A stretch of 64,000 bases of DNA from Microbacterium sp. 10M-3C3 (GTDB lineage: Bacteria > Actinomycetota > Actinomycetes > Actinomycetales > Microbacteriaceae). This document shows positions 15,937 to 59,337 of this stretch, piece after piece (within the stretch, counting starts at the first letter, position 1; every line of letters starts with the position of its first letter). The stretch spans positions 744,001 through 808,000 of the forward strand of contig NZ_CP034245.1 in NCBI RefSeq assembly GCF_003931875.1, given 5' to 3'. The notes under the pieces were generated by a model. That model did not search any database and had not been told where the DNA came from. It was given only the letters and a program-made list of their open reading frames with translations. The translations under genes were made by a program, and so were the position numbers.

Positions 15937-17724
15937 TCATTCTCCCGTAGCGGAGCACGCCGGGGCAAATCCCGCGTCTTCGAGAGGTGTCGCGAGCGGC
16001 GTCACGACCGCTTCCAGGTGCGGTGTCTGGCTCGTGCGCACGCGCACGGTCGCGACAGCCTCCTCGCCGGGAGCCAGCACCGTGGACCACGTCAGCACGC
16101 GCCGGCCGTCGTGATAGCCGCCGCCGAAGCCGGTCGCACCGCCGGAGCCGTCGGCGACCGCGCCGACCACCTCCGCACCCGGTGGCAGATAGAGGTAGGC
16201 GAGCGTCTCGGTGGAGCCGGCAGGCGTCCCGAACGAGCCGTCACCGGTGATGTAGTCGGGCAGCGTCGCGGCATCGGCGGGGGCGTCGCTGCGCAGGCGC
16301 ACGGTCAGCTCGGCCTCGGGAGCGCCCTCCGTGTCGGTGCACCAGCCGACCGAGGTCGCGGCCCGCATGTAGTAGTCCATCTTCGAGCCGGTGCTGTCGT
16401 TCAGGTACACGCCGAACCGCGTCGTCTCGTCGTCGCTCTCGGGCAGCCGCGCCTGCAGCGATGTCCCGTCCAGCACGGCCTGATCGACGGGATCGGCGTT
16501 CCACAGGGCGAGGCGGCGCTCCTGACCGGCGCGCGCGAGCGCCTCGACGAGCTTCTTCGGATCCGTGTCGCCCGAGGAGACGACGCCGAACACGGCGGCC
16601 GTGGCCGCGGCGAAGAAGGCGTCCTGGTCGCGTGGGTTCTCGTACCGCAGGTACACCTCGTTGAGGAGCAGGGGGACGGCGGTGTCGGCGGAGAGCACAT
16701 CGCCCGTCGGCAGGGTCACCGGTCCGGTCGCCTCAAGGAAGTACGACAGCGCGACCGGGTCGACGGCGATGACCCCGTCGACGTCGAGGCCGAACACGTT
16801 CCGCCACATCTCGCGGGCGATGGGCGCGCCGACGGTGAAGTCCGGCACCTGCGTCACGTTCTGGATGAAGCGCGTCGGCCGCGTGCCGAAGATCTGCTGC
16901 AGCTCCGACGGCAGCGGAGTGATGGGGCCGATGTTGCGCTGGAAGTCACCCGTGTCTCCCTGCCCGGCGAGCGAGATGCGGCCGTCCTCGGTGTGCACGA
17001 CCGCCATCGCTCCGGCGATGCCCCCGAGCGAGCGCCACTCGGCGTTGTTCTGGAACAGCACGAGGTAGTTGCGCGGGCCGTTCGCGCCGAGCATCTCTGG
17101 CATGAGCGTCGTGGCGCGCTCCAGCGCGTCGGCGCCGCCCGCCACCTCGTCGAGCAGATCCTGCACGTCGGACACCGGGGCGCGCAGCGGCGCGACCAGC
17201 TCCTCGGTGCGCACGGCGTCGATGTCGGCCGCGGCGGCGCGCAGGCGCTCCGCCGTCGTCGCCGCGGGCTCGCGCAGCGCCGCGAGGGTCGCCAGGTCGA
17301 AGCGCCCGTCGGTGGGACGGAGCGAATCCAGCGAGAAGGATGCGGCGGCATCCGTGAGCGGTCGCACCGCATCGCTCGCGACGTCGTCGACGGCGGCCGT
17401 GACCGTCGCGACCGCCGACAGCTGCGAACCGAGCCACGGCAGTCCCTCAGCCAGGCGCCAGACCGGGTCGCTGGTGAGCTCGCGCGCGGCGGAGGTGTCC
17501 GCGGAGACGCGGGCGACGACGTCGCCGGCCGAGGCCGGATCGGACAGCGCCGCCGTGACGTCGGCGGCCTGGGCGCGGGCATCCTGGAGGTGCGTGTACG
17601 CGAGGTAGCCGCGCACGCCGATCCACGCCGCGGCGAGGACGAAGACCGTGAGGACCGCTGCGAGGCTCCATGCGACCACCCGTCCGGCGACCCGTCGAGC
17701 GGGGGTCAGAGGGTATTCGGCCAC
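15937..17724 (-). CDS. DUF4012 membrane-anchored protein
   Basis: A 595-aa protein with one N-terminal TM helix (about 12-36) and a large extracellular part. The block NYLVLFQNNAEWRSLGGIAGA, of which LFQNNAEWRSLGG is the family mark, and the following FQRNIGPI identify DUF4012. The family's role is not established; members often sit in exopolysaccharide or surface-polymer loci, which fits this location. The GTG start is leaderless: TAGGGT ends 6 nt upstream on the minus strand. It is divergent from the lipoprotein at 17817. Confidence 0.8.
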   Translation of the reverse strand: MAEYPLTPARRVAGRVVAWSLAAVLTVFVLAAAWIGVRGYLAYTHLQDARAQAADVTAALSDPASAGDVVARVSADTSAARELTSDPVWRLAEGLPWLGSQLSAVATVTAAVDDVASDAVRPLTDAAASFSLDSLRPTDGRFDLATLAALREPAATTAERLRAAAADIDAVRTEELVAPLRAPVSDVQDLLDEVAGGADALERATTLMPEMLGANGPRNYLVLFQNNAEWRSLGGIAGAMAVVHTEDGRISLAGQGDTGDFQRNIGPITPLPSELQQIFGTRPTRFIQNVTQVPDFTVGAPIAREMWRNVFGLDVDGVIAVDPVALSYFLEATGPVTLPTGDVLSADTAVPLLLNEVYLRYENPRDQDAFFAAATAAVFGVVSSGDTDPKKLVEALARAGQERRLALWNADPVDQAVLDGTSLQARLPESDDETTRFGVYLNDSTGSKMDYYMRAATSVGWCTDTEGAPEAELTVRLRSDAPADAATLPDYITGDGSFGTPAGSTETLAYLYLPPGAEVVGAVADGSGGATGFGGGYHDGRRVLTWSTVLAPGEEAVATVRVRTSQTPHLEAVVTPLATPLEDAGFAPACSATGE

Positions 17725-17730
17725 GCGACC

Positions 17731-17736
17731 ACCCTA
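17731..17736 (-). promoter_or_regulatory. -10 of the leaderless DUF4012 gene
   Basis: Read on the minus strand this is TAGGGT, 6 nt before the GTG start at 17724. No ribosome-binding site lies between. Confidence 0.55.
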
Positions 17737-17816
17737 ACCAGCGCCCGCCGTCGAGATGGACGTCCCGACGGCGCCCGCACCCTAGACTGTCGGCGAGACG
17801 AGGGAAGGGGACGTCC

Positions 17817-18437
17817 ATGGTCCGAACCAGCGGACGTCGCGTTTCCGGCGTCGCTCTGGCGCTCGCCGCCGCACTCGCGCTCGCCGCATGCGGTCCCGCC
17901 CCGTGGAATCTGCCGAACGCCGGCGGCGAGACGCCGACCCCCACGCCGTCGCGCTCCGCCAGCGCCGCGCCGCAGCCGGTGCCCAACGACCTCTCGAGCG
18001 GATCGACGCAGCGGAAGCTCCAGGCGGGCGCCGTGGCCGCCGACGTCAACTACTGGTCGACGCTGTCGATGGACCGCTGGACGGCGTCGGCGCTCAAACC
18101 CGTCAGCCTGTCGATGACGACGACGGTCACGCCGAACGACGGCCAGCAGGTCGGGCTCCAGCGCGTCTCGATGATCGCGGTCCCCGCCAACGCGACGACG
18201 ACGTTCGCGCCGCTGGAGGCCCAGGTCGACCAGTCCAACCAGACCGCGGGATACCCGGTGCTGAACCCGTACAGCTACTCGCAGACGTTCAACATCGGCG
18301 AGGTCCCCGCCGAGGCGACGTTCGTGACGCTGCAGTTCACGTACGAGTTCCTCGTGCAGACCACGCCGACGTCGAACGAGTACGCCAAGCAGACGACGAC
18401 CGACTCGCTGACGGTCGCGATCGCCGGTCAGGACTGA
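17817..18437 (+). CDS. Lipoprotein, copy 1 of a duplicated family
   Basis: A 206-aa secreted lipoprotein. The signal peptide ends in a lipobox (LALAAC, Cys about 25), followed by a Pro/Thr linker. The C-terminal half (VPAEATFVTLQF and Y.KQTTTDSLTVAI) aligns with the end of the lipoprotein at 21397 (LPADAYGVTLEF, FAQQTVYQYVPIAI), so the two are paralogues. TAGACT at 17783 is a likely -10, and GGGAAGGGGA before the ATG is the ribosome site. Its stop overlaps the convergent gene by 10 bp. I recognise no known function. Confidence 0.75.
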   Translation: MVRTSGRRVSGVALALAAALALAACGPAPWNLPNAGGETPTPTPSRSASAAPQPVPNDLSSGSTQRKLQAGAVAADVNYWSTLSMDRWTASALKPVSLSMTTTVTPNDGQQVGLQRVSMIAVPANATTTFAPLEAQVDQSNQTAGYPVLNPYSYSQTFNIGEVPAEATFVTLQFTYEFLVQTTPTSNEYAKQTTTDSLTVAIAGQD

Positions 18438-19555
18438 CCGCGCGCCCCGATCCGCTCCCAGCGGTCACCGCCCTGCCGCGACGCCTCGTCGGCCGCGCGG
18501 TCGGCGGCGGCCAGGAGGGCGTCGAAGTCGTACCCGACGATGTCGGCCGGCGCCCACCCGACGCTCGCCGACAGCTGCACCGCGACGCTGGTCGTCGCCT
18601 CGAGCTCGGTGATCCGGCGCAGCGCGGCGCGCACATGCTCGCGCAGCACGGGGCCCGGACGCGCGACGAGGACCACGACGCGTCCGCGTCCTTCGCGGCC
18701 GATGTCGGCCTCCGCGGGGAAGGAGCGCGCCACGACGTCCTCGAACCCCGCGGCGAGCCGTGAGAAGACGGCGTCGCCGAGCGTCGCGCGGATGTCTTCG
18801 GGGTCGTCGATGCGGATGGCGAGCAGAGCCCACGAGGTCTCGGCGGCCGCCGAGGCACGGCGCAGGCGATCGACGGCCGTGACGGTGAACTGCGGCCACG
18901 AGGCGGCCGTGTGCACGCCGACCGGCGAGACGGACGTGAAGAAGAGGAGGGTGACGGTCGCGCACACGAGATAGACGAGCATGCCGAGGGCGTTGAGCAT
19001 GCGCACGAGGGTGAGGTCGCTCTGCTGCACGGGGAGGACGACGGCAGCGAGGAGGATCAGGACGCCGAGCACCACGAACGCCCCCGACACGATGGCCAGG
19101 GGCAGGACGAGCCGGTCGTGACGGTCCGGTGAGCGCCGGATCTCCCACAGCGTGAGACCGGCGAACACGCCGGCTGCGAAGAACAGCGCGCGGAAGGTGA
19201 GGTTGTAGGCGATCGGGTCGGTCACCGCCACCAGGACGAGCGCGGTGACGACCGACTGCACGAGTGCCACCCACGGCAGCGCCTGCACGCCGCGCCGCGC
19301 GCGGAATCCCGACCAGATGAGGGCCGGCGCACCCAGCATGACGCCCAGGCCCGCGCGCCGGACCGATTCCATCCCGAGCGACTCGCCCGCCAGAGTGACC
19401 CACGTGCTCACCATGGCCAGGACGAAGGCCAGCGACCACAGCAGCGACGCCCGCGACGGACGCTGCAGGAAGCCGAGCCCGATGATCATGACCGTGCCGA
19501 GCGTGGCCACGGCGACCTGTGCGATGCCGAGGTTCGCGACGGCGAGTCCCCCCAT
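18428..19555 (-). CDS. Membrane protein with degenerate GGDEF domain, copy 1
   Basis: A 375-aa protein with six to seven TM helices (residues 1-205), then a cytoplasmic nucleotide-cyclase-like domain of about 150 residues. GGDEF-domain landmarks can be followed (ALLAIRIDDPEDI, LGDAVFSRLA, SASVGWAP). The GG[D/E]EF loop itself reads GREGRGRV, so diguanylate cyclase activity is unlikely. It begins 1 nt after the histidine kinase gene, so the two are cotranscribed. It may be a signal receiver or scaffold. A paralogue with the same layout is at 22137. Confidence 0.7.
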   Translation of the reverse strand: MGGLAVANLGIAQVAVATLGTVMIIGLGFLQRPSRASLLWSLAFVLAMVSTWVTLAGESLGMESVRRAGLGVMLGAPALIWSGFRARRGVQALPWVALVQSVVTALVLVAVTDPIAYNLTFRALFFAAGVFAGLTLWEIRRSPDRHDRLVLPLAIVSGAFVVLGVLILLAAVVLPVQQSDLTLVRMLNALGMLVYLVCATVTLLFFTSVSPVGVHTAASWPQFTVTAVDRLRRASAAAETSWALLAIRIDDPEDIRATLGDAVFSRLAAGFEDVVARSFPAEADIGREGRGRVVVLVARPGPVLREHVRAALRRITELEATTSVAVQLSASVGWAPADIVGYDFDALLAAADRAADEASRQGGDRWERIGARGQS

Positions 19556-19556
19556 G

Positions 19557-21221
19557 TCAGCTGTCGCTTCCGGCCGCGGGGAGCGTCATCGTGACGGTCG
19601 TGCCCGTGCCCTGCTCGCTCTGCACGTCGAGGCTGCCGCCGGACTCCTCGACGATCGAGCGGATGATGCCCATCCCCAGCCCGGTGCCGGTCGTCGTGCT
19701 CTCGCGCACGGACTGCGCGCGGAAATAGGGATCGAAGATGCGGGGCAGATCCTCCGGCGCGATGCCGATCCCGGTGTCGGCGATCGTCAGGCGCACGACG
19801 CCGTCGTCCTCGGAGCCGGTCACCGTGACCGACCCGCCGCCGGGCGTGTACTTGATCGCGTTGCTCAGCACGTTGTCGACGGCCTGGCGGAGGCGGAACG
19901 CGTCGCCGCGGGCGAGCAGCCGGGGCGGGAGGTCGACGGTGACCGACACCCGTCGACCGTCGGCCGCGGGGCGGAAGGACTCGAGCGAGGCCTCGAGCAC
20001 GCGGCGGAGGTCTGCCGGCTCGGTGGGAGCGGGATCGAGGGCGTCCTTCCGCGACCCCGCGAGGATCTCGGAGATCAGCGTCTGCATCCGCAGCGCGGCG
20101 TTGTCGATCACCTCGAGCTGCTCGCGCGTCTTGTCGGGGATGTCGTCGTTGTCGAGGGCGAGGTCGGCGTGCCCGAGGATCGCCGTGAGGGGGTTGCGCA
20201 GCTCGTGCGACACGACCGCGGCGAGCCGCTCGCGCGCCCTCTCGGCCTCGATGAGGGCCGTGACGTCGTGCACGATCAGGAGGATGCTGTCGGGCTCGTC
20301 CGCCGCCGGGGTCAGCCGGCGCGTCGACACCGACAGCGCGTGCCACTGACCGGCCGTGTCGAAGAGCCACACCCGCTCGTCCTCGAAGATCTCGCCGCGC
20401 GCCGCGCGGGCGAACGGCCGGTCGGCCTCGGGGAGAGGCTCGCCGCGCAGCGACGCGTACTCGACGGCGCCTCCGGGGCGCTTGGGGTCATCGCGGTCGA
20501 TCGCGTACAGCGAGACGTATGTGTCGTTCAGCGCGAGCACCTCGCCGCCGCGGGAGAGGCGCGCGATGCCGGTGTCCAGGCCGTTCAGCATCTGCGACAC
20601 CCGCCGCTCCTGACCCTGCACGCGCTGGAGGGTGCCCTGCAGACGCGACGCCTGTCGACGCAGCAGATGCTTGAACGCCTTGTTCTGGCGCGCCGTGAGG
20701 TAGGTCGTCAGCCCGATGAAGGCGAGGGAGAGCACGACGACGATGAAGCGCAGCGCCGTCACCGAGCTGGGGCCGTTGACGGTCGCGTCGACGAGGATCA
20801 CGACGGCGACGACGCCGAGCCCGCAGGCGAGCGCGGCGAGGGAGAAGTAGGTCGCGATCCACGTGATCGGGAACACCCAGAAGAAGCCGAACCGCAGATC
20901 GCTGTCGAAGGCGAGCAGGCTGATGCCGAGGAGATCGCCGAAGGGCAGCATCATGATCGCCCACCGCGGCACGCGCGGCCACGGGACCACGAGCGCCACT
21001 GCTGTCAGCGCGATGATGACCGCGACGCCCGCCGAGAAGCTCCAGATCCCGAACAGCCGCGGCTCGATGGCCTGCACCACGAGCACCGTGACGACGATGC
21101 TCGCCGCGAGGACCAGCTGCAGCAGCCAGATCGACCGCGTGCGGGAACGGGGGGAACCGTCGGCCTCGGTCGCACCGGACTCCGTCGCCGCGGGCGCCGA
21201 GAAGGGGTTCGCGGCTGCCAT
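19557..21221 (-). CDS. PAS-containing sensor histidine kinase
   Basis: A 554-aa membrane kinase. Five or six TM helices fill the first 190 residues. A PAS-like domain follows (about 215-310). The HisKA domain has VVSHELRNPLTAILGH, with the phospho-His near residue 330. The ATPase domain has NVLSNAIKY (N box), DTGIGIAPEDLP (G1) and GTGLGMGI (G2). I chose the ATG at 21221 because TAGACT ends 7 nt before it (leaderless); an ATG 21 nt earlier is less likely. It is cotranscribed with the GGDEF-like gene. The nearest free regulator is at 24924. Confidence 0.88.
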   Translation of the reverse strand: MAAANPFSAPAATESGATEADGSPRSRTRSIWLLQLVLAASIVVTVLVVQAIEPRLFGIWSFSAGVAVIIALTAVALVVPWPRVPRWAIMMLPFGDLLGISLLAFDSDLRFGFFWVFPITWIATYFSLAALACGLGVVAVVILVDATVNGPSSVTALRFIVVVLSLAFIGLTTYLTARQNKAFKHLLRRQASRLQGTLQRVQGQERRVSQMLNGLDTGIARLSRGGEVLALNDTYVSLYAIDRDDPKRPGGAVEYASLRGEPLPEADRPFARAARGEIFEDERVWLFDTAGQWHALSVSTRRLTPAADEPDSILLIVHDVTALIEAERARERLAAVVSHELRNPLTAILGHADLALDNDDIPDKTREQLEVIDNAALRMQTLISEILAGSRKDALDPAPTEPADLRRVLEASLESFRPAADGRRVSVTVDLPPRLLARGDAFRLRQAVDNVLSNAIKYTPGGGSVTVTGSEDDGVVRLTIADTGIGIAPEDLPRIFDPYFRAQSVRESTTTGTGLGMGIIRSIVEESGGSLDVQSEQGTGTTVTMTLPAAGSDS

Positions 21222-21228
21222 AGAGCGC

Positions 21229-21234
21229 AGTCTA
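21229..21234 (-). promoter_or_regulatory. -10 of the leaderless kinase promoter
   Basis: TAGACT on the minus strand, 7 nt before the ATG at 21221. On the plus strand TAGTCT at 21247-21252 could be the divergent -10 for the lipoprotein at 21397. Confidence 0.55.
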
Positions 21235-21396
21235 CCCACCATGGTGTAGTCTGCTTGCCGCCATCCTGTCTCTGCTCCGCCGTCGGTCCGATCCGGGCCG
21301 CCGACCGGCAGACTCCCCCTGAGGCCTGCATCCCGCAGCGCGGTGGTTCACAACCCGACCCCGCACACCTGCGTGACCCCGCCTCAGGAGACCCCG

Positions 21397-22134
21397 ATGC
21401 CTTTCCCGACCCCGCGCCGCTCGGCGCGCACCGCGGCCTTGGCCGCTTCCCTCGCCCTCGCCGGCGTGCTGTCCCTCACGGGCTGCTCGCAGGTCGTCGA
21501 CGCGTTCAACGCGATCCAGGGCACGAACCCCGCCGGCCAGACCTCGGTCCCCGCGACGGTCGCGACGCCCGCGCCGCAACCGTCGGCGTCGATGGCGTTC
21601 AACTCCCAGTTCACCTACGACGGGTCGGTGTCGCTCAAGACCGACGTCGCAGACGGGCTCGTCCTGACCCTCGACGTGTGGGCGGTCGACTCCAAGCGCA
21701 CGATGGAGTGGACGACGGATGCGCCGAAGACCTTCGGCTTCGCGGTCAACGTGCAGGACACGCGCGTCGACGACAAGGCGACGCTCGATCAGAAGCGCCG
21801 AGTCTTCATCTCCAACATCAGCATCACGTCGCAGACGGCGCAGACCTCCGGGCAGACGCAGCAGCCGTTCCAGTTCAGCGCAGACCCCCGCACGCTCGTG
21901 CCCAGCGACACGATCCGCTCCGACAAGGGCCTGCTGCTGAACACGTTCCAGGGCGGCCTGCTGGTGCCCGAGACCACCATCCACCAGCTGCCCGCCGACG
22001 CGTACGGCGTCACGCTGGAGTTCTCGATGAACGTGTCGGTGGAGGGCACCGCGAACACCGACAGCTCCTTCGCGCAGCAGACCGTGTACCAGTACGTGCC
22101 GATCGCGATCTACCCGGCGGGCGCCGCCGGCTGA
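21397..22134 (+). CDS. Lipoprotein, copy 2 of a duplicated family
   Basis: A 245-aa lipoprotein with lipobox LTGC (Cys about 29) and a Pro/Ala/Thr linker. Its beta-rich domain is paralogous to the lipoprotein at 17817 (shared VTL[QE]F and VAI/IAI ends and similar spacing). CAGGAG lies 6 nt before the ATG. It ends 2 bp from the stop of the convergent GGDEF-like gene, exactly mirroring the arrangement of copy 1. Presumably it is an outer-face component of the same system; no function is known. Confidence 0.75.
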   Translation: MPFPTPRRSARTAALAASLALAGVLSLTGCSQVVDAFNAIQGTNPAGQTSVPATVATPAPQPSASMAFNSQFTYDGSVSLKTDVADGLVLTLDVWAVDSKRTMEWTTDAPKTFGFAVNVQDTRVDDKATLDQKRRVFISNISITSQTAQTSGQTQQPFQFSADPRTLVPSDTIRSDKGLLLNTFQGGLLVPETTIHQLPADAYGVTLEFSMNVSVEGTANTDSSFAQQTVYQYVPIAIYPAGAAG

Positions 22135-22136
22135 GG

Positions 22137-23210
22137 TCACCGACGCCGCGCCGCGAGGGTCTCGCCCCGCACGCGGCCGGCGCCGGGGCGGAAGAAGGCG
22201 TCCAGCTCTTCCGGCGTCGTGATCGTCGCGCGGGCCCACCGCACCTCGGGGTCGCCGATGTCGTCGTCGCGCAGCGCCTCCGTCAGGGTGCGGCGGAGCT
22301 CGCGCCAGTCGGCTTCGGCGAGCTCGGGGACGAGAGCGCCGACCGTGTCGCGCGACACCACCGCGGCGGTGCCGCCCGGAAGGTGGGCGCGCGCCGCATC
22401 CGTCACCTGCTCGAGGAGCGCGTCGGAGCGGGCGTGACCGTGCGCGGCGCGCACGAGGTCGAGGTCCGGCAGCCCGACGCGGACGGCGACGAGCGGATGC
22501 TGCGCGAGCCGGGCGATCGCGTCCTCACGGAACGAGCGGCGCGCGTGCGTGCGGGTGCCGGGCTCGGGGTCGTCGAGGAGGCGTCGTCCGAGCACCAGCG
22601 CGCCGACGCTGACCACGACGATGGTCACGGCGCTCACGAGCGACGTGATCTGCGCCGACGCGACCGTGTCCCACAGCGCCGAGTGCATGCCCGCCGCGGC
22701 CGCCACGATCAGCCGCGTCGCGTTGTAGGCCGCGAAGAGCGCGAGGGCGGCGGACATCGTCCGGGCGCCGGAGAGGGCGCCGAGAGGACGCCGGCGCAGC
22801 TCGACGGCGGCGAGGATGCCGAACACCGCGATCAGGGCGGTCTTGATGAGGGTGGCGGAATCCAGCGGCACCACGAACGTGATCGCGAGCATGAGGAGGG
22901 TCACGGCGGCGCCGGAGAGGGCGCCGATCGCGGGGCGGCGATTCACGCGCCGCGCGCCCGCCCATAGCGCGATCGGCGCCAGGACGTTCGTTGCGTTGCC
23001 GACGGCGGCGGCCACGGCGCCCCCGCCCAGCGCCTCGGCGATGTTCATCGCGGCGCACACCATCGCCGCGATCGCCCCCGCGCCGAAGTACAGCACGAAG
23101 TCCCCGCGGAGGCCGCGGTCCCGATGCAGGCGGCCGCCGACGATCAGCAGCGCGACCAGGGCGACCACGGTCGCTGCGATCGCCGCGATCAGATCGCCGA
23201 AAGGGCCCAT
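22137..23210 (-). CDS. Membrane protein with degenerate GGDEF domain, copy 2
   Basis: A 357-aa protein with about seven TM helices followed by a cytoplasmic domain of GGDEF type. The active-site loop reads VVSRDTVGALVP where an active enzyme has R-x-GG[D/E]EF, so catalysis is unlikely. Layout and neighbour match the gene at 18428. I chose the ATG at 23210, with GGAG 8 nt upstream; the open frame continues upstream without a convincing start. It is convergent with its lipoprotein partner and divergent from the GT2 gene. Confidence 0.7.
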   Translation of the reverse strand: MGPFGDLIAAIAATVVALVALLIVGGRLHRDRGLRGDFVLYFGAGAIAAMVCAAMNIAEALGGGAVAAAVGNATNVLAPIALWAGARRVNRRPAIGALSGAAVTLLMLAITFVVPLDSATLIKTALIAVFGILAAVELRRRPLGALSGARTMSAALALFAAYNATRLIVAAAAGMHSALWDTVASAQITSLVSAVTIVVVSVGALVLGRRLLDDPEPGTRTHARRSFREDAIARLAQHPLVAVRVGLPDLDLVRAAHGHARSDALLEQVTDAARAHLPGGTAAVVSRDTVGALVPELAEADWRELRRTLTEALRDDDIGDPEVRWARATITTPEELDAFFRPGAGRVRGETLAARRR

Positions 23211-23364
23211 GCCCGGCTCCGTTCCCCGAGGGGAGCGGGCCCGATGCGATCTTGAGCAAATCTTGCGGTCACGCTCACCGGAATCGGGCCTATTCCCTGC
23301 GGCGAGTGTACCAATGTGGGTCCTGCCGCCACCGACGGCACCCCCTCCGACCGAAGGACTCATC

Positions 23365-24840
23365 GTGACCGATCCGCGCACCGCCATCGCCCGTCCCGGG
23401 TTCGCGCCGACGTCGTATGCCCACGAGCCGGTCCAGGCGACCACGGAGGCCGGCTTCGCCGACGACTTCGCCTCGGTCCTGGAGAACGCCACCGGGCACC
23501 GCTCGACGATCGGCTGCGTCATCCCCGCGTACAACGAGGAGGAGTCGATCGCGGAGGTGATCGAGGCGCTGTTGAACCAGACCCGCGTGCCCGACGTCAT
23601 CCATGTCGTCGTCAACAACACCTCCGACGCGACGGTGAAGATCGCCTCGGAGTACAGCGGCCCCCACGAGATCGTGAACGAGCTCGGCGAGCAGTTCACC
23701 GAGGTCTTCGTCCACGACATCGGCAAGAACCCCGACAAGAAGGTCGGCGCCCTGAACTACGGCTACTCGCTGGTCGAGGGCTACGACTATCTCCTCGGCG
23801 TCGACGGCGACACGATCGCCCACGAGAAGGCGGTCGAGTACCTCGAGACGGAGGCCGTCTCGGACTCCCGCATCGGCGGCATCTCCGCGATCTACTCGAT
23901 CGACGACCGGCCCATCAAGGGTCTCATGGCCAAGTTCCTCATCGCCGGCCAGCGCACGCAGTTCGCGGCGTTCAACCTGCAGAACCTGCTCCGCGGTCGC
24001 AACATGGCGGTGCTCGGCGGCCAGTTCTCGATCTTCTCGACCAACGCGCTGCGCGACGCGATGAAGGCCAATCACCAGGTCACGCCGTGGGTGAAGGACT
24101 CCGAGGTGGAGGACTCCCTGCTGTCGCTGCAGATCAAGAGCGCCGGCTACCTCACCAAGATCAGCCCGTTCGCCCGCGCCAACGTCGGCGGCATGACGAC
24201 GCTCTCGGGCTACGACGCCCAGCAGGTCAAGTGGACCTACGGCGCGATCGAGCTCATGTGGCCCGGCCAGCGCGGCGACACGAAGGGCCAGCCCTTCCAC
24301 CCCAACCTGCGCCTTCGCTGGTTCGAGAACTTCGGCATGCTCACGAACCTGTTCGTGCGTGTCGCGTTCCTGACGCTGCTGGCCGGCTCGCTGTCGATCA
24401 ACGCGTTCGTCTTCTCGCCGCTGTGGCTCATCCCGCCGGCCGTCGCGGTCCTCCTGAACCTCCGTATCGCCTACACGATGAAGTACCGCGACACGCGCGA
24501 CGTGCTCTTCGCGCTGCTGGTCTTCCCCGCGGAGATGTTCATGTGGGTGCGCATCAGCCACTTCGTCCGCTCGTGGAGCCGGTTCCTGTCCCGCAAGAAG
24601 GTCGACAACTGGGCCATGCAGGCCAAGGCCGAGCGCGGCGGCGGGCTCGGGCACTGGGCGCCGTTCATCGTCCTCATCGCCGTGGGCATCGCCCTCGCCG
24701 TCGTGTGGAACCTCGTGGGTCCGGTCGTGCAGTCCTCGATCCTGTGGATCGGCTGGCCGATCGTCGGTGTCGTCACCGTCCTGCAGACGCTCCTCATGTT
24801 CACCAAGCTCGTCCGTCGTCACCACGGATACAAGGTCTGA
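23365..24840 (+). CDS. Processive family-2 glycosyltransferase (cellulose/hyaluronan-synthase type)
   Basis: A 491-aa inner-membrane glycosyltransferase. The GT2 domain has VIPAYNEEESI, the DGD metal site (147-149), E-V-E-D (247-250, catalytic base) and QQVKW (286-290), which stands where processive synthases have QxxRW. Four or five TM helices follow. This pattern suggests synthesis and export of a beta-linked glycan from UDP-sugars. No PilZ domain is present. The start is a GTG with GAAGGA upstream; an ATG at 23314 is an alternative. The GH6 gene and signalling genes nearby support a regulated polysaccharide locus; the polymer is unknown. Confidence 0.82.
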   Translation: MTDPRTAIARPGFAPTSYAHEPVQATTEAGFADDFASVLENATGHRSTIGCVIPAYNEEESIAEVIEALLNQTRVPDVIHVVVNNTSDATVKIASEYSGPHEIVNELGEQFTEVFVHDIGKNPDKKVGALNYGYSLVEGYDYLLGVDGDTIAHEKAVEYLETEAVSDSRIGGISAIYSIDDRPIKGLMAKFLIAGQRTQFAAFNLQNLLRGRNMAVLGGQFSIFSTNALRDAMKANHQVTPWVKDSEVEDSLLSLQIKSAGYLTKISPFARANVGGMTTLSGYDAQQVKWTYGAIELMWPGQRGDTKGQPFHPNLRLRWFENFGMLTNLFVRVAFLTLLAGSLSINAFVFSPLWLIPPAVAVLLNLRIAYTMKYRDTRDVLFALLVFPAEMFMWVRISHFVRSWSRFLSRKKVDNWAMQAKAERGGGLGHWAPFIVLIAVGIALAVVWNLVGPVVQSSILWIGWPIVGVVTVLQTLLMFTKLVRRHHGYKV

Positions 24841-24865
24841 TAGCGCACCCGACGCATCGGAAACA

Positions 24866-24901
24866 CGGATGCTCCGGCCCTGGGGAGGGCCGGAGCATCC
24901 G
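24866..24901. terminator. Bidirectional terminator between GT2 and regulator genes
   Basis: A perfect 15-bp stem (CGGATGCTCCGGCCC with its complement at 24887-24901) closes a 6-nt loop. It lies 25 nt after the GT2 stop and 22 nt after the convergent regulator gene, so it can serve both. The stem is built on the GGATGC/GCATCC motif. Confidence 0.85.
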
Positions 24902-24923
24902 TACATTCACGCCCGGCGCGGGG

Positions 24924-25916
24924 CTAGGAGGCCATGAGCTCCGAAGTGAGGCGGTAGCCGACGCCGCGCACGGTCTCGATGTACCGCGGGTTGGCGGGGT
25001 TGTCGCCGAGCTTGCGGCGCAGGTTCGTCATGTGCGCTTCGATCGCGCGCTTGTCGGCCTCGCCGACGAAGTAGCTCGTCACGTATGACTCGCCGCGCAG
25101 CACCAGCGTGAGATCGGCCTTGCTGCGCACCCGGCGCTTGGACTCCAGGAGGGTCGCGAGCAGATCGAACTCTGTGCGCGTCAGCTCGAGCTCATGGCCG
25201 CCGACGAGCACGATGCGGGAGTCGGGGTCGAGCTGGAGGTCGCGGTGCACGAGCCAGTTGTCACCCGTCGTGACCAGCTCGGCCGGCCCGCGGGTGGCGA
25301 TCTCCGTGCCCGCCACGCCGTGCGGCTCGGGGCCCTGCGTCGAGGGGACGATGACCGGCCCGGCGGGCATGGCCGCCGTCGGCGCGTGCTGGTCGAGCCC
25401 GTCGTCCACCGGGACGCCGGAGAGCCCGCCGTCGGGCTGGACGACCGGGATGCTCTGCGTCGCGCCGCGTGCGCCCGGGAACGACGGCCCGACCGGCCCT
25501 TGGCGGGGCGCGGCCGCGGCCGCGGTGCCGCCGGCGCGGGGACGGCGCAGCAGCGCCTCGATGCGGGCGCGCAGCTCGCGCGGGCGGAACGGCTTGACGA
25601 CGTACTCGTCGGCGCCCGCCCCGAGGCCGAGCACCACGTCGGCCTCGTCCTCGAGGCCCGTGAGCATGATGATGTACGTGTCGGACTGGGCGCGGATGCG
25701 GCGCGCAGCCTCGAAGCCGTCGATGCCCGGCATGTTCACATCGAGCGTCGTGATCAGCGGCTGATAGGCGATGACGGCGCGCACGCCGTCGATGCCGTTG
25801 CCCACCGACACCGTGGAGAAGCCGGCCGACTCGAGGACCTCGACGAGAAGGTGGCGGATATCCGGATCGTCTTCGACGATCACCGCAGTCTTCTGCGCGT
25901 CGGCGGAGTCGCTCAT
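24924..25916 (-). CDS. OmpR-type response regulator with long linker
   Basis: A 330-aa regulator. The receiver domain has the acidic pair EDD (15-17), phospho-Asp 59 in LDVNMPG and Lys 108 in VVKPF. The C-terminal winged helix has ELELTRTEFDLLATLL and RYIETVRGVGYRL. Between them is an insert of about 100 residues rich in Gly, Pro, Ala and Thr; OmpR-family linkers are normally 5-20 residues. No kinase is adjacent, so the PAS kinase at 19557 is the natural candidate partner. I chose the ATG at 25916 as the start of the receiver fold. Confidence 0.88.
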   Translation of the reverse strand: MSDSADAQKTAVIVEDDPDIRHLLVEVLESAGFSTVSVGNGIDGVRAVIAYQPLITTLDVNMPGIDGFEAARRIRAQSDTYIIMLTGLEDEADVVLGLGAGADEYVVKPFRPRELRARIEALLRRPRAGGTAAAAAPRQGPVGPSFPGARGATQSIPVVQPDGGLSGVPVDDGLDQHAPTAAMPAGPVIVPSTQGPEPHGVAGTEIATRGPAELVTTGDNWLVHRDLQLDPDSRIVLVGGHELELTRTEFDLLATLLESKRRVRSKADLTLVLRGESYVTSYFVGEADKRAIEAHMTNLRRKLGDNPANPRYIETVRGVGYRLTSELMAS

Positions 25917-26049
25917 GGTCAGGGCCTCACAGGTTCCGATCGGTCGTCGCCGCTGCCGCGGAATGGTGCGCTGGCCCGCGGCCGCGGGAGGTCTGCCACA
26001 TCCTCCCACACTTCCCAGGTCGCCGACGGCGGCCGAGCACGGCGGCGCG

Positions 26050-27078
26050 TCAGCGTGCCTCGCGGGTGAGTTCGACGGCCGCCTCGGGCCACCACACGCC
26101 GGCCGCGGGCCCGCCGTTGCAGGCGCCGTCGCTCTCGCCGGGGGGCTTGATCCACAAGTTCGTGTCGACGACGTCGTCGCCGTACTCGCCGCCCGGCGTG
26201 CCGACGAGACGCCCCGGGGGATTGCACCACTCGGCCCCGGCCGGACCGGCGCCGTTGCGGGACGTGTCGACGACGGCGTGCGCACCACCGAGCAGCTCGG
26301 ACACGCGGTGCGCGTAGTCGAACTCGGCGGAGGTCGTCTGATAGTTCGAGACGTTCGTGGCGAATCCGCGCACTCTGTCGAGCACGCCCACCTGCCGGAT
26401 CAGGTCGGCCATCTGCTCAGCCGGCAGCCAGCTGGAGTGGCCGCCGTCGAGGTAGATCCACGTGTTCACGCCCGCGATCCGCTCGACGGCGCCCTGCAGC
26501 TGCGGCACGCGCTCGGCGAGGTTGCCGCACTCGGGGGCGAGGGCGAGGCTGTCGGGTTCGAGGATGACGATCTTCTGCACGTCCTGCGCGTTGCGCAGCG
26601 CCTGGCCGATGAGGTCGGTCCACTGCACGTAGGCGTCGGGGTCGAGGCCGCCGGCGGAGTGGTTGCCGCAGTCGCGTCCCGGGAGACCGTACACGACGAC
26701 GGCGAGCGCGGCCTTCTGCTCGCGTGCCTCGGCGGCGAGGTGCGCGACGCGATCCCACACCTTGTCGATCGGATCGAGCTCGGGGGTCAGCCAGTACGCC
26801 GTCGGCTGCGCCGCGAGGTAGTCCGTCGCCGCACGCTCCTCGGCGCTCATGTCCGCGGCATCCGTCGCGAACTGCGCGGCCTTCGACTCGTCCGGGGCGA
26901 CGATCGTGGTGCCGACGGCCGGCGGACGGGCGGCGAGCATCTGGAAGAAGTTCTGCGCGTTCACGCCGATCACCGCGACGCCCGCGACGAGGATGATCGC
27001 GCCGACGGCGACCGCACCGATCACAAGACCGGTCTTCACCCGGCGGCGCTGGGCCGGCGTCGACCGCGGTCTCCTCAC
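26050..27078 (-). CDS. Membrane-anchored glycoside hydrolase family 6
   Basis: A 342-aa protein with an N-terminal TM anchor (about 15-38) and an extracellular GH6 domain. Motifs in order: VVVYGLPGRDCGN (Asp 136), VILEPDSLAL (Asp 176, the expected acid), YLDGGHSSWL, ATNVSNY, VVDTSRNG, WCNPPGR and LWIKPPGESDG (Asp 317). GH6 enzymes cut beta-1,4-glucan. Gly replaces Asp in the usual LPDRDC. GH6 proteins partner cellulose-like synthases in Streptomyces, so here it probably trims the product of the GT2 at 23365. The GTG start is leaderless (TAGAGT 6 nt upstream). Confidence 0.88.
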   Translation of the reverse strand: MRRPRSTPAQRRRVKTGLVIGAVAVGAIILVAGVAVIGVNAQNFFQMLAARPPAVGTTIVAPDESKAAQFATDAADMSAEERAATDYLAAQPTAYWLTPELDPIDKVWDRVAHLAAEAREQKAALAVVVYGLPGRDCGNHSAGGLDPDAYVQWTDLIGQALRNAQDVQKIVILEPDSLALAPECGNLAERVPQLQGAVERIAGVNTWIYLDGGHSSWLPAEQMADLIRQVGVLDRVRGFATNVSNYQTTSAEFDYAHRVSELLGGAHAVVDTSRNGAGPAGAEWCNPPGRLVGTPGGEYGDDVVDTNLWIKPPGESDGACNGGPAAGVWWPEAAVELTREAR

Positions 27079-27281: not shown

Positions 27282-27319
27282 TTCGATAGTTAGCCCGCAC
27301 AGCGGTGTACGCTCGGAAA

Positions 27320-27643
27320 GTGGGCAAACTGGTTTACAACGCCCTCGGTCATTCATTCGACATCGAGGATCGCACTCTGTCCCACCTGCGGGTGGTCTTC
27401 ATGAACAAGCTGCGCCGCGGCGAGCCGTTCATGTTCCACCACACGGTGGGCGACGGCAGCGGATCGCGCAGCCTGTGGATCCATCCCGCGATCCCGCTCG
27501 TGTTCCACTTCTACGGCAGTCGCCCGCCGGCGCTGAACCGCCACTGGATCGACGACCTCATGCGCGAGGCGAACAGTCCGAACGGACTCGCGGTGACCCC
27601 GGAGCCCGATCCGGATGCGATTCGCGAGCCCGAGCGCGCCTAG
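27320..27643 (+). CDS. Small DUF7882-type protein, copy 1
   Basis: A 107-aa cytosolic protein of a type common in Microbacteriaceae, recognisable from GKLVYN at the start, DIEDRTLSHLRVVFMNKLRRGE, SLWIHPAIPLVFHFYGSRPP and a C-terminal ANSPNGL. Relatives are sometimes labelled ATP-dependent DNA ligase without support; the function is unknown. The GTG at 27320 has TACGCT 6 nt upstream (leaderless). Its TAG stop shares the CTAG palindrome with the stop of the convergent MarR gene. A paralogue lies at 28282. Confidence 0.75.
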   Translation: MGKLVYNALGHSFDIEDRTLSHLRVVFMNKLRRGEPFMFHHTVGDGSGSRSLWIHPAIPLVFHFYGSRPPALNRHWIDDLMREANSPNGLAVTPEPDPDAIREPERA

Positions 27644-28095
27644 GCGCACTCGGCGTCGACGGCCTCGCGGACGCTCGCCAGGAACTCGGCGACGTGCTCG
27701 GCCTCGCGCGGGGTGAGCCGCGTCGCGAGGTCGCGGATCTGCGCCGTGAGCGGATCCACGTCGGTGAGATCGATCGAGCGATCGAAGGGCACGACGAGCT
27801 TGCTCCGCCGGTCGCGCGGATGCGGCTCGAAGGCGATGAGTCCGCCGCTGTGCAGCCGGTCGAGCATGCCGGTGACGGATGCGGCCGACACCCCGAGGTG
27901 CTGGGCGATCTCCGACGGCGTCACCGCCTCGCCGTCGTCGGCTCGGTCGAGGATGTAGCGCATCGCGGCGCGCGCGTTCTCGCTCGGGCCGCACGCGGTC
28001 TGCCGTCGGCGGGCGAGCCGGGCCTCCGACAGGCGCAGGCGTTCGACGGCGAGCGCGGCGGAGAGGGCGGCGTCGGGTGTCTCCGTTGTCGTCAC
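27640..28095 (-). CDS. MarR-family transcriptional regulator
   Basis: A 151-aa dimeric winged-helix regulator. The HTH reads TPSEIAQHLGVSAASVTGMLDRLHSGGL, with the wing in PHPRDRRSKLVV; both are diagnostic for MarR. It lies between two DUF7882-type genes, convergent with the first and divergent from the second. It probably represses one or both and itself, given the TTAG-type inverted repeats on either side. The GTG start at 28095 is the first plausible one. The ligand is unknown. Confidence 0.85.
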   Translation of the reverse strand: MTTTETPDAALSAALAVERLRLSEARLARRRQTACGPSENARAAMRYILDRADDGEAVTPSEIAQHLGVSAASVTGMLDRLHSGGLIAFEPHPRDRRSKLVVPFDRSIDLTDVDPLTAQIRDLATRLTPREAEHVAEFLASVREAVDAECA

Positions 28096-28159
28096 GGTGC
28101 GGCTCCTCCCAGGGTCGGGGTGGCGGGCGGTGCGCCGCCCATCTTAGTTAGGCACGGTG

Positions 28160-28169
28160 ATTACTAGCC
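28160..28169. promoter_or_regulatory. Operator half A between marR-like and DUF7882-type genes
   Basis: ATTACTAGCC is the inverted counterpart, with one mismatch, of GGTTAGTAAT at 28232. Further TTAG-type elements (TTAGTTAGGC) lie at 28144-28153. Confidence 0.45.
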
Positions 28170-28213
28170 AAGCGATTGATGTGTGCGCGTGCAGGCGCTC
28201 GGCTTTCGTTCTG

Positions 28214-28243
28214 TTGCCTGGTATCTCGATGGGTTAGTAATAT
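28214..28243 (+). promoter_or_regulatory. Promoter of the second DUF7882-type gene with overlapping operator
   Basis: The -35 is TTGCCT (28214-28219) and the -10 is TAATAT (28238-28243), with an 18-bp spacer. GGTTAGTAAT (28232-28241) overlaps the -10, where a bound repressor would block polymerase. Confidence 0.6.
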
Positions 28244-28281
28244 GCCTGCATCGACGCACTGCTGGCGGAAAGGAACATGTG

Positions 28282-28623
28282 ATGGGCTCCCTGTACTACG
28301 GCAACGCGACCGAACCCGTGCACGTGCCCGACCGTCTGCTGGCGCACGTGAAGGTCGTGATCGCGACGAAGCTGCGTCGCAACGAGAGCTTCACGCTGTC
28401 GTGGCGTCATCCGGGCGATGTCCCGGGCGGGCGGTCGACGCTGTGGATGCAGCCCGCGATCCCGCTGCGCTTCGTCTTCGAGACCGACGAGACAGAGATG
28501 CTCGACCCGCAGGTGCTGAAGGAGTTCGCGAACGCCGCGAACTCCTCGAGCGGGCTCGTGCTCGACCTCGAGCGGGCGATTCCGGGCGCGGCCGGCGAGC
28601 GCGTCCACGCTCGCGTCGCCTGA
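28282..28623 (+). CDS. Small DUF7882-type protein, copy 2
   Basis: A 113-aa paralogue of the protein at 27320: MGSLYYGN, VPDRLLAHVKVVIATKLRRNE, TLWMQPAIPLRFVFE and ANAANSSSGLVL align with it throughout. It starts at the ATG at 28282, with GGAAAGGAA 6 nt upstream; an out-of-frame ATG lies 5 nt earlier. A conventional promoter with an operator-like box is visible upstream, unlike the leaderless copy 1. The function is unknown. Confidence 0.78.
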   Translation: MGSLYYGNATEPVHVPDRLLAHVKVVIATKLRRNESFTLSWRHPGDVPGGRSTLWMQPAIPLRFVFETDETEMLDPQVLKEFANAANSSSGLVLDLERAIPGAAGERVHARVA

Positions 28624-28629
28624 GGTCGG

Positions 28630-30429
28630 TCAGGGCGTCGAGGTCGGCGTCGCACGGGCGCCGAAGATGCCGTCTCCGTGCCGCTGGAGCGCGTCGTACG
28701 CCTCCTGATAGGTCTCGGGGATGGGCTCGCCCGGCGCGCCGTATTTCGCCACGAGCATCGCGACGAGCCCGACGCCCGGAGGGCTGAGCGGCCGATCCGC
28801 GGCGCCGGCGTCGAAGGGGCGCTTGCTCTCGGGGTTCGGTGGCACGTAGGCCGGCTGAGTCGACGGCCAGTCCCGGGGGTCGCGCGGCGTCGTGAGCGTC
28901 ACCGCGTTGTCGATCGTCGGAGCGCCCCTGTCGCGTGCCGTCAGCGGGTCGAGGCCGTACTTCGTCGTGAGCGTGCTGATCACCGAGCCGTGGTGCATCG
29001 CGTCGTGGATGACATGGCCCTTCGCGGTGTACGCGGAGATGGCGATCGCCGGGACCCGCACGCCCAGGCGGTCGAACGCGAACCCCATCTCGGTGCGCGC
29101 GGGAAGCCCTTCCGGCACCGCCGCCGCGGGCGGCGGCACGTGGTCGAACGTGCCGCCGTGCTCGTCGAAGGTCACCAGCAGCATCGTGTTCATGGCATTC
29201 GAGCCCTCGGGCGACGCGCTCGAGCGCACCGCGGAGTAGATCTTGTGCAGGAGCGCCTCGCCCGCCCGCACGTCGGAGATCGCCGCGCCCGTGATGATGC
29301 GCCCGTCGTCGTCGGTCTCGGTCATGGGCCCGACGGGCGGGTGCATGTCGTTGTGGTCGTAGACCAGGCGCGGCTCGACGAACGCGTACGCCGGCAGCGT
29401 GCCCTTCTCCACGTCGTCCCAGAACCGCGACATCGCGCGGAAGTGATCGGTGGCGAAGTACGGCTCGAGGGCGGGGGCGTGGATGAAGCCGGTGAGCGGG
29501 ACGACCGAGACGTCGTCGTAGTAGATCGCCCAGTCCAGCCCGGCGTCTTCGAGCCGGTTGAAGATCGTGGGGGAGTCGTTCTCCGCCCCGAACCACTTCT
29601 TGTATCCGCCGTGATGCCCGTTCGTGACATAGCCGTGCGATGTCGAGGCGTGGAAGAACGACCGGTTGCAGAAGGTCTGCGAGGGCACCGCGCAGTGCCA
29701 CGCGTCGTAGACGGCGAAGTTGCGCGCGAGCGTCGAGATGACCGGCAGCATCGCCGGGTCGAACGCGCCCATGATGACCGAATACTCCTCGGCGGTGGGC
29801 TCGCGGTTGCGATCGGCGATGAAGCTGTCGATGTAGTCCTGGACGAAGCCGCTCATGGATGCGGCGGCGCCGGCCGGCGGCGCGTTGAACGGCGCCGTCA
29901 TGTCCCGGATCTTCTTGTGGCGGTTTTCGTCCGGGTCCACGGTGCCGAACAGCTGCGTGTTGACGTGCGGGTACTCCTCGCCGGGATCCGGGCGCGGGCT
30001 CGACATCACCTCGTCGGTCGGCCCCGAGTAGCGGTGGGCGGCGATCGACTCGCCCGCGTGCGTCGCGTTCGCGATGTCGGCGCGCAGACCGTCGAAGCTC
30101 TGCCCGCGGGGCGGCTTCTCCTCGTCGTACAGCCATCCCAGCAGGTTGTCGAACGACCGGTTCTCGAACATGACGACAACCAGGTGGTCGAAACCGGGTC
30201 CGGCCGCCCGGGGCGCGACGCTCATCGACGGGGTGGGCGCGGACGTGTCGCCGGGCGCGGGGGCGCCGCCGGGCTGCGCCACGCGCGAGAGGCCGAACGC
30301 GGTGCCGGCGGCCGCCGCGAGGCCCGCGGCACCGATGCCCGCGAACTTCAGGAAGCTCCGGCGGCTCTGCGCACTCCGCGGATCGGGCTCCTGCTCGGGG
30401 CCGTGCTCGGGGGTGGGGGAGTCGGTCAT
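28630..30429 (-). CDS. Tat-exported phosphoesterase (phospholipase C / acid phosphatase family)
   Basis: A 599-aa protein. A twin-arginine signal (QSRRSFLKFAGIGAAGLAAA, motif SRRSFLK) leads the chain. The alkaline-phosphatase-fold domain begins with HLVVVMFENRSFDNLLGWL (FENRSFDN is the family's metal/nucleophile motif) and has DEHGGTFDHVPPP toward the C-terminus. Members hydrolyse phospholipids or other phosphate esters outside the cell. It ends 6 bp from the convergent DUF7882-type gene and stands as a single unit. The exact substrate cannot be predicted. Confidence 0.88.
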   Translation of the reverse strand: MTDSPTPEHGPEQEPDPRSAQSRRSFLKFAGIGAAGLAAAAGTAFGLSRVAQPGGAPAPGDTSAPTPSMSVAPRAAGPGFDHLVVVMFENRSFDNLLGWLYDEEKPPRGQSFDGLRADIANATHAGESIAAHRYSGPTDEVMSSPRPDPGEEYPHVNTQLFGTVDPDENRHKKIRDMTAPFNAPPAGAAASMSGFVQDYIDSFIADRNREPTAEEYSVIMGAFDPAMLPVISTLARNFAVYDAWHCAVPSQTFCNRSFFHASTSHGYVTNGHHGGYKKWFGAENDSPTIFNRLEDAGLDWAIYYDDVSVVPLTGFIHAPALEPYFATDHFRAMSRFWDDVEKGTLPAYAFVEPRLVYDHNDMHPPVGPMTETDDDGRIITGAAISDVRAGEALLHKIYSAVRSSASPEGSNAMNTMLLVTFDEHGGTFDHVPPPAAAVPEGLPARTEMGFAFDRLGVRVPAIAISAYTAKGHVIHDAMHHGSVISTLTTKYGLDPLTARDRGAPTIDNAVTLTTPRDPRDWPSTQPAYVPPNPESKRPFDAGAADRPLSPPGVGLVAMLVAKYGAPGEPIPETYQEAYDALQRHGDGIFGARATPTSTP

Positions 30430-55836: not shown

Positions 55837-56002
55837 GTCGGGATCCTCCGGTGCGCAGGTGGCCGGTTTTGGTTACCTGCGCCAATCGTCGGTGACCATC
55901 CGCCGAGCAGGAGGTAACGAAGCTGCGCAGTCACGGACGCGCCGCAGGCTCGCGCGTTCCGCCCTGACCTTCTCGCGATATCGCGAGCGGAGCGGGTGTG
56001 CC
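55837..56002. other. Spacer with palindromes between rmlCD and the UDP-glucose dehydrogenase gene
   Basis: Features seen: a perfect 16-bp palindrome CTCGCGATATCGCGAG at 55972-55987; an 8-bp stem GCGCAGGT/ACCTGCGC (55853-55860 with 55875-55882) around a 14-nt loop; GTTACCT/AGGTAAC inverted at 55872 and 55912. The hairpin lies just upstream of the dehydrogenase start and could regulate it; the palindrome may bind a dimeric protein. Confidence 0.45.
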
Positions 56003-58467
<2,465 letters not shown>

Positions 58468-59337
58468 TCAGTGTCCTCGCTTCAGCAGGTCCAGCAGGTA
58501 CGTCCCGTACCCGGATTTCGTCAGCTTCACCGCACGTTCCTCCAGGTCGGCGTCAGTGAGGAACCCCATCCGCCACGCGACCTCTTCCGGGACGCCGATC
58601 TTCATCCCGGTGCGGCGTTCCATCGTGCGCACATACTCCCCGGCGTCCATCATCTGATCGAACGTGCCCGTGTCCAGCCACGCCGTCCCCCGCGGCAACA
58701 CCTCGACCTGCAGCTTCCCGCGGCGCAGGTACTCCGCGTTGATATCGGTGATCTCGTACTCACCCCGAGGGGACGGCGCCAACCCACGCGCGATCTCGAC
58801 CACATCGTTGTCGTAGAAATACAGGCCCGGGATCGCGTAGTTGCTCTTCGGGTCGGCGGGCTTCTCCTCGAGCGAGATCGCACGCCCCGTGCCATCGAAC
58901 TCCACCACCCCGTACGCGGACGGCTCGGCCACCCAGTACGCGAACACAGCGCCCCCGTCCACATCCGAGTAGCGCTGCAGCTGCGACCCGAGGCCCGGCC
59001 CGTAGAGAAGGTTGTCGCCCAGCACCAACGCGACCTTGTCGCCGCCGATGAAGTCCGCGCCGATCGTGAACGCTTGCGCCAACCCATCCGGCGACAGCTG
59101 CGCCTTGAACGACAACGACACCCCGAACTGGGACCCATCGCCCAGAAGCCGCTCAAAGTGCTCGGCGTCGTGCGGTGTCGTGATCACCAGAATCTCGTCG
59201 ATCCCCGCCAGCATCAACGTCGACAGTGGGTAGTACACCATCGGCTTGTCATATACCGGCACCAACTGCTTCGAGACCCCAAGAGTGATCGGATGCAACC
59301 GCGTCCCCGAACCACCCGCCAAGACGATGCCCCTCAT
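58468..59337 (-). CDS. rmlA: Glucose-1-phosphate thymidylyltransferase
   Basis: A 289-aa nucleotidyltransferase, the first step of dTDP-rhamnose synthesis. [18 protein letters not shown] is the nucleotide-binding signature, and [17 protein letters not shown] and [10 protein letters not shown] are family motifs. The ATG overlaps the stop of the preceding glycosyltransferase (ATGA), which fixes the start. GC content returns to the genome level from here on. Confidence 0.96.

Follow-up and report, generated by a model that had tools for sequence, protein, structure and literature searches.

A GT2 synthase locus of Microbacterium with its own GH6 hydrolase and a lipoprotein as its probable partner

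What does a compact group of genes around a membrane glycosyltransferase of family GT2 make in Microbacterium sp. 10M-3C3, and which of the neighbouring genes take part? The group occupies positions 15,937 to 27,078 of a 64,000-nucleotide stretch, hereafter the window (contig NZ_CP034245.1, positions 744,001 to 808,000), of a 3.39 Mb single-contig genome. An original prediction took it for a regulated beta-glucan-like exopolysaccharide system in which inactive GGDEF membrane proteins and lipoproteins replace the usual cyclic diguanylate (c-di-GMP) and Bcs parts. Having followed this up by computational comparison, we put at roughly 0.58 the probability that the cluster is a synthase-dependent system for a surface beta-glucan, probably beta-1,4-linked, with an unrelated lipoprotein in the position that BcsB, GlxA or CcsB has in other systems. 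The core set is the GT2, a GH6 hydrolase, an OmpR regulator and a lipoprotein family with two copies in the window; these genes and a candidate control site are located as follows:

23365..24840, plus strand: GT2 membrane synthase, 491 residues, GTG start (Pfam, motifs, hydrophobic segments, fold matches)
17817..18437, plus strand: LP1, lipoprotein of 206 residues with a lipobox-like LAAC (open reading frame, family alignment, GT2 neighbourhood)
21397..22134, plus strand: LP2, lipoprotein of 245 residues with a lipobox-like LTGC and a beta-sandwich model (translation, homologues, model)
24924..25916, minus strand: OmpR-family response regulator, 330 residues (Response_reg and Trans_reg_C)
26050..27078, minus strand: membrane-anchored GH6-family glycoside hydrolase, 342 residues (PF01341, Cel6 alignment)
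23250..23265, plus strand: direct repeat TCTTG-N6-TCTTG, a candidate OmpR-type site (exact in the window)

From low to high coordinates, the genes run DUF4012 (minus), LP1 (plus), GG1 (minus), histidine kinase (minus), LP2 (plus), GG2 (minus), GT2 (plus), OmpR regulator (minus) and GH6 (minus), GG1 and GG2 being GGDEF-like membrane proteins, so that every gene named in the original prediction is present in the sequence. The GG2 and GT2 genes are divergent with 154 bp between them, the ends of the LP1 and GG1 genes overlap by 10 bp, and the GH6 and regulator genes share a strand, the regulator gene being the downstream one. The duplicated lipoprotein/GGDEF-like pairs are real, because LP1 and LP2 (profile comparison probability 97.5) and GG1 and GG2 (98.5) are each remote paralogues.

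Whether this arrangement exceeds chance can be judged from two collections. The named set holds the best 80 of 96 loci, is biased to relatives with similar DNA, and matches the GT2 protein in all 80; its Microbacterium group includes three loci whose records name just Microbacteriaceae or Actinomycetota (L026, L043, L054), and one record in its Nocardioides/Pimelobacter group is from Pimelobacter (L080). A lipoprotein is found within 8 kb of the GT2 gene in 77 of the 80 loci, the regulator in 76 and GH6 in 72; all three occur together in 69, and LP1 and LP2 both occur in 36. Among the 65 loci that have 6 kb or more of sequence to either side of the GT2, 64 have all three partners, the lone exception being L077, with no lipoprotein within 8 kb. 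The pattern extends across Microbacteriaceae and Nocardioides. A Sanguibacter locus (L075) has the lipoprotein and the regulator, and its sequence stops before the expected position of GH6. Sanguibacter belongs to Micrococcales, which also contains Microbacteriaceae, and Nocardioides belongs to Propionibacteriales. Conserved synteny across genera, which had been proposed as the check on the prediction, is therefore what we find for the GT2, lipoprotein, OmpR regulator and GH6 genes.

The class sample comprises 394 genomes, the window's included, with a threshold of E up to 1e-60 for the GT2 and up to 1e-5 for the lipoprotein; up to 7 lipoprotein candidates were scored per genome, so that distant members may be missed. 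The GT2 is present in 22 of these genomes and the lipoprotein in 21, all of them among those 22; the GT2 genome that falls short of the lipoprotein threshold (G344) has a weak match beside the GT2, at 28% identity. Outside the window genome, the sample contains 22 GT2 loci, four of which are the same DNA as named loci, and the three partners accompany 17 of them, a lipoprotein being found in 21. The incomplete loci are one with the GT2 alone (L133), two with the GT2 and only a divergent lipoprotein (L134, L136), one without GH6 (L135) and one that ends at a contig end (L123). The genome of L133 has two lipoprotein genes elsewhere, and no other member was found in the 20 kb around either.

Closer to the window genome, a set of 58 near genomes (the window's included) has a full-length GT2 in 14 and a partial one in three. 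All 14 carry the lipoprotein, and each of them has a GH6 gene on the contig of the GT2 and no more than 5 kb from it; among the other 44, only G033 has a lipoprotein, and this is a fragment. In a phylum sample searched at E up to 1e-40, the GT2 occurs in 3 of 396 genomes, the window's included, all of the same class.

The chromosomal surroundings vary and the gene unit stays. Ribosomal protein genes (L13, S9) and the gene of a phosphoglucomutase-family protein flank the unit in some Microbacterium (such as L066, L076 and L077) and also in L080, L088, L095 and L096 of the Nocardioides/Pimelobacter group, and other Nocardioides have it beside a carboxyl transferase gene. That the genes are merely neighbours by descent, without a joint function, has a chance close to negligible: the DUF4012 gene does show that common neighbours within a genus need not be partners, but the unit recurs in two orders and in differing surroundings, its members co-occur almost exclusively with one another, and they are jointly absent from several genomes. 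The synteny and co-occurrence counts thus bear out the expectation that the arrangement is more than chance.

The joint absences come from three genomes (G012, G017, G019) with eroded GT2 copies, which carry large internal deletions relative to the GT2 of the window. Their loci keep GG1, the kinase and the regulator; neither the locus nor the genome search found a lipoprotein in them, and no GH6 gene neighbours the eroded GT2, a GH6 being present elsewhere in G012 and G017. This joint loss, with the signalling genes kept, suggests that the GT2, the lipoprotein and the local GH6 tend to travel together, and the signalling genes seem to be useful in their own right. The genomes with an eroded or lost GT2 all belong to one genus, and their losses may not be separate events. 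Two further observations concern these loci. The eroded copies (L112-L114 and L137-L139; G012, G019, G017) sit between the kinase and regulator genes. In L140 (G033:C35, 9342-11015), GH6 adjoins fragments of the lipoprotein and regulator genes and the GT2 is missing, which looks like a deletion through the module.

What kind of enzyme is the GT2? Its Pfam matches are to GT2 families only (Glycos_transf_2, 52.4 bits; Glyco_tranf_2_3, 48.8 bits), and the predicted DGD, EVED and QQVKW motifs are in place in the window; among the 81 gene calls made from the window and the 80 named loci, all 81 have VDGDT-type, EVEDS and QQVKW motifs and none has QxxRW. The C-terminal hydrophobic segments end at residue 484 of 491, no domain was found beyond them, and PilZ gave no Pfam match at E up to 1. 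In the structure model (predicted local distance difference test score 64.4), single-domain GT2 enzymes give the best Z over the catalytic domain (SpsA, 16.8), while the longer alignments, of ~340-370 residues and reaching the membrane part at 7-8 A root-mean-square deviation, are those to hyaluronan synthase (Z 14.8) and BcsA (Z 13.6). On this model, we read the GT2 as a processive-type synthase, rather than as one proven to be so. The long alignments weigh against a non-processive GT2 that decorates a surface glycolipid or wall polymer, with GH6 acting on an outside glucan and linked to it by shared regulation only; moreover, the local GH6 is gone where the GT2 is eroded and the regulator kept, which argues against linkage by regulation alone. 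We judge this alternative improbable.

The same architecture could also make another polymer, one of amino sugars or of mixed composition (like poly-N-acetylglucosamine (PNAG), chitin or hyaluronan), with a GH6 of shifted specificity or other target. The closest NCBIfam model to the GT2 is PgaC_IcaA (TIGR03937), with NodC weakly listed; some public records call GT2 relatives PgaC or poly-beta-1,6-GlcNAc (N-acetylglucosamine) synthase; and hyaluronan and chitin synthases head the Foldseek list for the model (hyaluronan synthase top, chitin synthases and BcsA lower), at TM-scores of only ~0.4. Against this, the PgaC_IcaA score is 55.5 bits, 367 below the curated cut-off of 422.3, and no polysaccharide deacetylase, the usual partner in PNAG synthesis, is present among the cluster proteins scanned. 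GH6 is in addition a near-constant partner with intact site motifs. Another polymer is thus unlikely in our view, if still a serious contender, also since CslZ, itself a GH6, is reported to cut alpha-chitin and peptidoglycan besides cellulose (PMC9040799, PMC11022532).

The hydrolase itself is firmly assigned, at 192.5 bits to PF01341 against a cut-off of 27. Its motifs RDCG, EPD, D-x-GHS and PGESDG, among which we take the catalytic ones to lie, align with known Cel6 chains and structures, and a single N-terminal hydrophobic segment (residues 13-45) provides the expected membrane anchor, so that the predicted membrane-anchored GH6 with its acidic residues was found. Three of the site motifs occur in 73 of 73 GH6 gene calls, PGxSDG in 66 and the N-terminal hydrophobic segment in 67. 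A beta-glucan-like product is plausible because this GH6 adjoins a GT2 with processive-type motifs; this part of the original prediction is supported, whereas the roles it gave to DUF4012 and to a replacement of c-di-GMP are not.

Neither LP1 nor LP2 has a Pfam family match at E up to 1, and the lipobox cysteine is invariant across their joint alignment of 27 sequences; modelling gives LP2 a beta-sandwich fold, whose structural matches, of arrestin type, are weak. In the Nocardioides/Pimelobacter group, the lipoprotein gene lies 3' of the GT2 gene, and in our gene calls the two share 4 bp at 5 of the 12 loci that have both (L080, L086, L088, L094, L096). The almost exclusive occurrence of the lipoprotein together with the GT2 agrees with the idea that it takes the place of BcsB. 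Some public records label LP2 relatives as fructose 1,6-bisphosphatase, in spite of their lipoprotein-like look and lack of a Pfam match, and we see no support for that name; if the family is a synthase partner, these proteins would gain a role.

How does the cluster compare with known systems? What Bcs, Csl and Ccs systems have in common is a core synthase whose second partner is non-homologous, and each has a gene for a glucanase; cellulose synthesis in Gram-positive bacteria is described as still largely unknown (PMC11022532). On our analysis, the cluster fits this plan with a new partner and a still unproven product. CslA-GlxA-CslZ of Streptomyces resembles it in having an actinobacterial membrane GT2, a dedicated, unrelated second partner and a GH6 gene beside the synthase (here within 8 kb in the 72 loci given above); it differs in that CslA has QXXRW (PMC11022532) and the GT2 here QQVKW, and in that here a lipoprotein is the constant partner and an OmpR regulator is part of the cluster. 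The cslA-glxA-cslZ cluster has been compared across filamentous actinobacteria, and the word Microbacterium is absent from the part of that paper at hand (PMC9040799). General scans of the window proteins turned up no lytic polysaccharide monooxygenase (LpmP), no profile for this family having been searched. We did not file the cluster as Csl because the GlxA-type domain PF09118 (GO-like_E_set), which we take to be a part or marker of GlxA, has no match in the window genome and none in 19 of the 22 GT2-bearing genomes in all, the window's among the 19.

BcsA-BcsB-BcsZ is similar in its logic of synthase, outer partner and glucanase, and BcsA is among the loose fold matches of the GT2 model, the alignment extending into the membrane part. 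We did not file the cluster as Bcs because the GT2 here has neither QxxRW nor PilZ; in addition, no BcsB is present among the cluster proteins scanned, and Bcs carries a GH8 where this cluster has a GH6 (PMC7710045). The clostridial Ccs locus (ccsZABHI) is similar in pairing a synthase with its own partner set and a cognate beta-1,4-glucanase (PMC7710045), and unlike in that CcsZ is a GH5 and the other partners differ. RiGT2 of Romboutsia ilealis is likewise a Gram-positive GT2, with a reported beta-glucan product, mixed-linkage (1,3;1,4)-beta-glucan, and it has QXXRW and PilZ (PMC10374906), neither of which was found in the GT2 here. Judged by titles and the starts of abstracts, with most subscription papers outside our coverage, we found no published description of this gene set.

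Under the reading that we favour, a surface beta-glucan system, the GT2 would join sugars from a nucleotide donor, most likely uridine diphosphate glucose (UDP-glucose), in the cytoplasm and thread the growing chain outward through its own membrane helices. The lipoprotein would be placed at the outer face, where it probably forms a complex with the GT2 and would guide, gate or activate it, as BcsB, GlxA or CcsB does elsewhere. The membrane-anchored GH6 would trim or release the chain, which would then probably have beta-1,4-glucose links. Expression would be set by the OmpR regulator (and, where present, by the kinase and the GGDEF-like proteins as well), probably through the TCTTG-N6-TCTTG repeat in members outside Nocardioides.

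A broader proposal can be made only tentatively, with slightly less than even confidence: that the cluster encodes one more bacterial synthase complex for a cellulose-like beta-glucan, assembled independently of the others and characterised by a QxxKW GT2, an obligate beta-sandwich lipoprotein unrelated to BcsB, GlxA or CcsB, a GH6 of its own and a control site of OmpR type. It would occur in part of Microbacteriaceae, in Nocardioides and in a few other actinomycete families (for some class genomes, the family names are our own inference), and many members would add a signalling trio of kinase, motif-less GGDEF membrane protein and regulator that works without a canonical diguanylate cyclase and is able to outlive the synthase. 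With so compact a group of genes, in which the new partner is nearly obligate and a GH6 and a candidate promoter site are included, one could test directly what outer-face partner a membrane synthase needs.

What, then, do the signalling genes contribute? Besides the regulator, which has the two domains expected of the OmpR type, a receiver (87.8 bits) and a Trans_reg_C winged helix (69.9 bits), they comprise:

19557..21242, minus strand: membrane histidine kinase with a weak PAS, HisKA and HATPase_c (Pfam)
18428..19555, minus strand: GG1, a membrane protein with a degenerate GGDEF domain
22137..23210, minus strand: GG2, a second GGDEF-like membrane protein, a profile homologue of GG1

The kinase, described beforehand as a PAS kinase, has solid HisKA and HATPase_c domains and a PAS match under the cut-off (16.7 versus 23.1 bits); 53 of the 80 named loci and 11 of the 22 class-sample loci have it within 8 kb of the GT2. 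GG1 matches GGDEF at 22.9 bits, slightly below the cut-off of 23.8, and GG2 at 11.9 bits (E 0.2). An alignment of ~40 GG1-type proteins has other residues at the stretch of the GGDEF motif, and a GGDEF-like motif is found in 0 of 76 related gene calls; we rejected these proteins as a source of c-di-GMP because the motif is absent from all 76. Canonical GGDEF proteins (E below 1e-20) were not found in the window genome, which has weak matches only; within the genus, 1 of the 14 genomes that have a full-length GT2 contains them, as do 6 of the 21 that lack one, the three eroded-GT2 genomes being among these six. The best GGDEF match of the whole window genome is the motif-less GG1 itself, at E 2.3e-5.

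Could polymer synthesis nevertheless be governed centrally by the GGDEF-like proteins, with an effect on the synthase like that of c-di-GMP in Bcs? Their genes lie amid the cluster, GG1 directly 3' of the kinase gene, and 13 of the 14 Microbacterium genomes with a full-length GT2 lack a canonical GGDEF, 10 of these 13 having a weak match at positions mostly not located. We nevertheless consider such control very improbable: just 53 of the 80 named and 9 of the 22 class-sample loci have a GG protein within 8 kb of the GT2, GG1 stays with the kinase and regulator in the three genomes where the GT2 is eroded, and both the motif and a PilZ domain on the GT2 are wanting. That the GGDEF-like proteins exist is confirmed, and their role looks regulatory rather than core; on these counts they are no constant part, and the claim that they or the lipoproteins replace c-di-GMP goes beyond evidence in which the only GGDEF matches of the genome are weak. 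A motif-less GGDEF protein in genomes without a canonical one would be a clean case for a GGDEF fold whose job is other than making c-di-GMP.

The repeat TCTTG-N6-TCTTG has an 11-bp period, usual for the direct repeats of OmpR-family sites, and lies 100-115 bp before the GT2 start; it is a candidate for binding by the regulator. With up to one mismatch and within 300 bp before the GT2, it is found in 30 of 59 loci of the Microbacterium group, 5 of 6 from other genera and 1 of 15 from Nocardioides/Pimelobacter, compared with 6 of 960 before other genes under the same criterion, the related sequences not being independent of one another. In the other genera, it also precedes 4 of 6 LP1 genes, these being the same sites, between a divergent LP1 and GT2. 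In the window taken by itself, such a pattern is nothing out of the ordinary.

One remaining member of the original proposal falls outside the module:

15937..17724, minus strand: DUF4012 protein (152.8 bits)

We rejected it as a partner because it occurs, whether or not the GT2 does, in 34 of 35 genomes of the genus, and it lies within 8 kb of the GT2 in 36 of the 80 named loci and 3 of the 22 class-sample loci. Acyltransferase and endonuclease/exonuclease/phosphatase-like neighbours were also rejected, their matches persisting beside eroded GT2 copies; in the Nocardioides/Pimelobacter loci, the latter type has no match and the former just a weak one, ~10 kb off, in L074 and L094.

On the far side of GH6, at 27305-28623 of the window, DUF7882-type genes surround a MarR gene, and such genes adjoin GH6 in a subgroup of Microbacterium loci; we rejected them as core because MarR occurs in just 19 loci of the gene-call set, the window included. 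They are followed at 28630-30429 by a Phosphoesterase-family protein (PF04185), whose N-terminus is twin-arginine-like. Further along, at 56001-64000, the G+C content drops to 0.64 and then to 0.59, compared with 0.69-0.74 elsewhere in the window, which may mark an acquired region.

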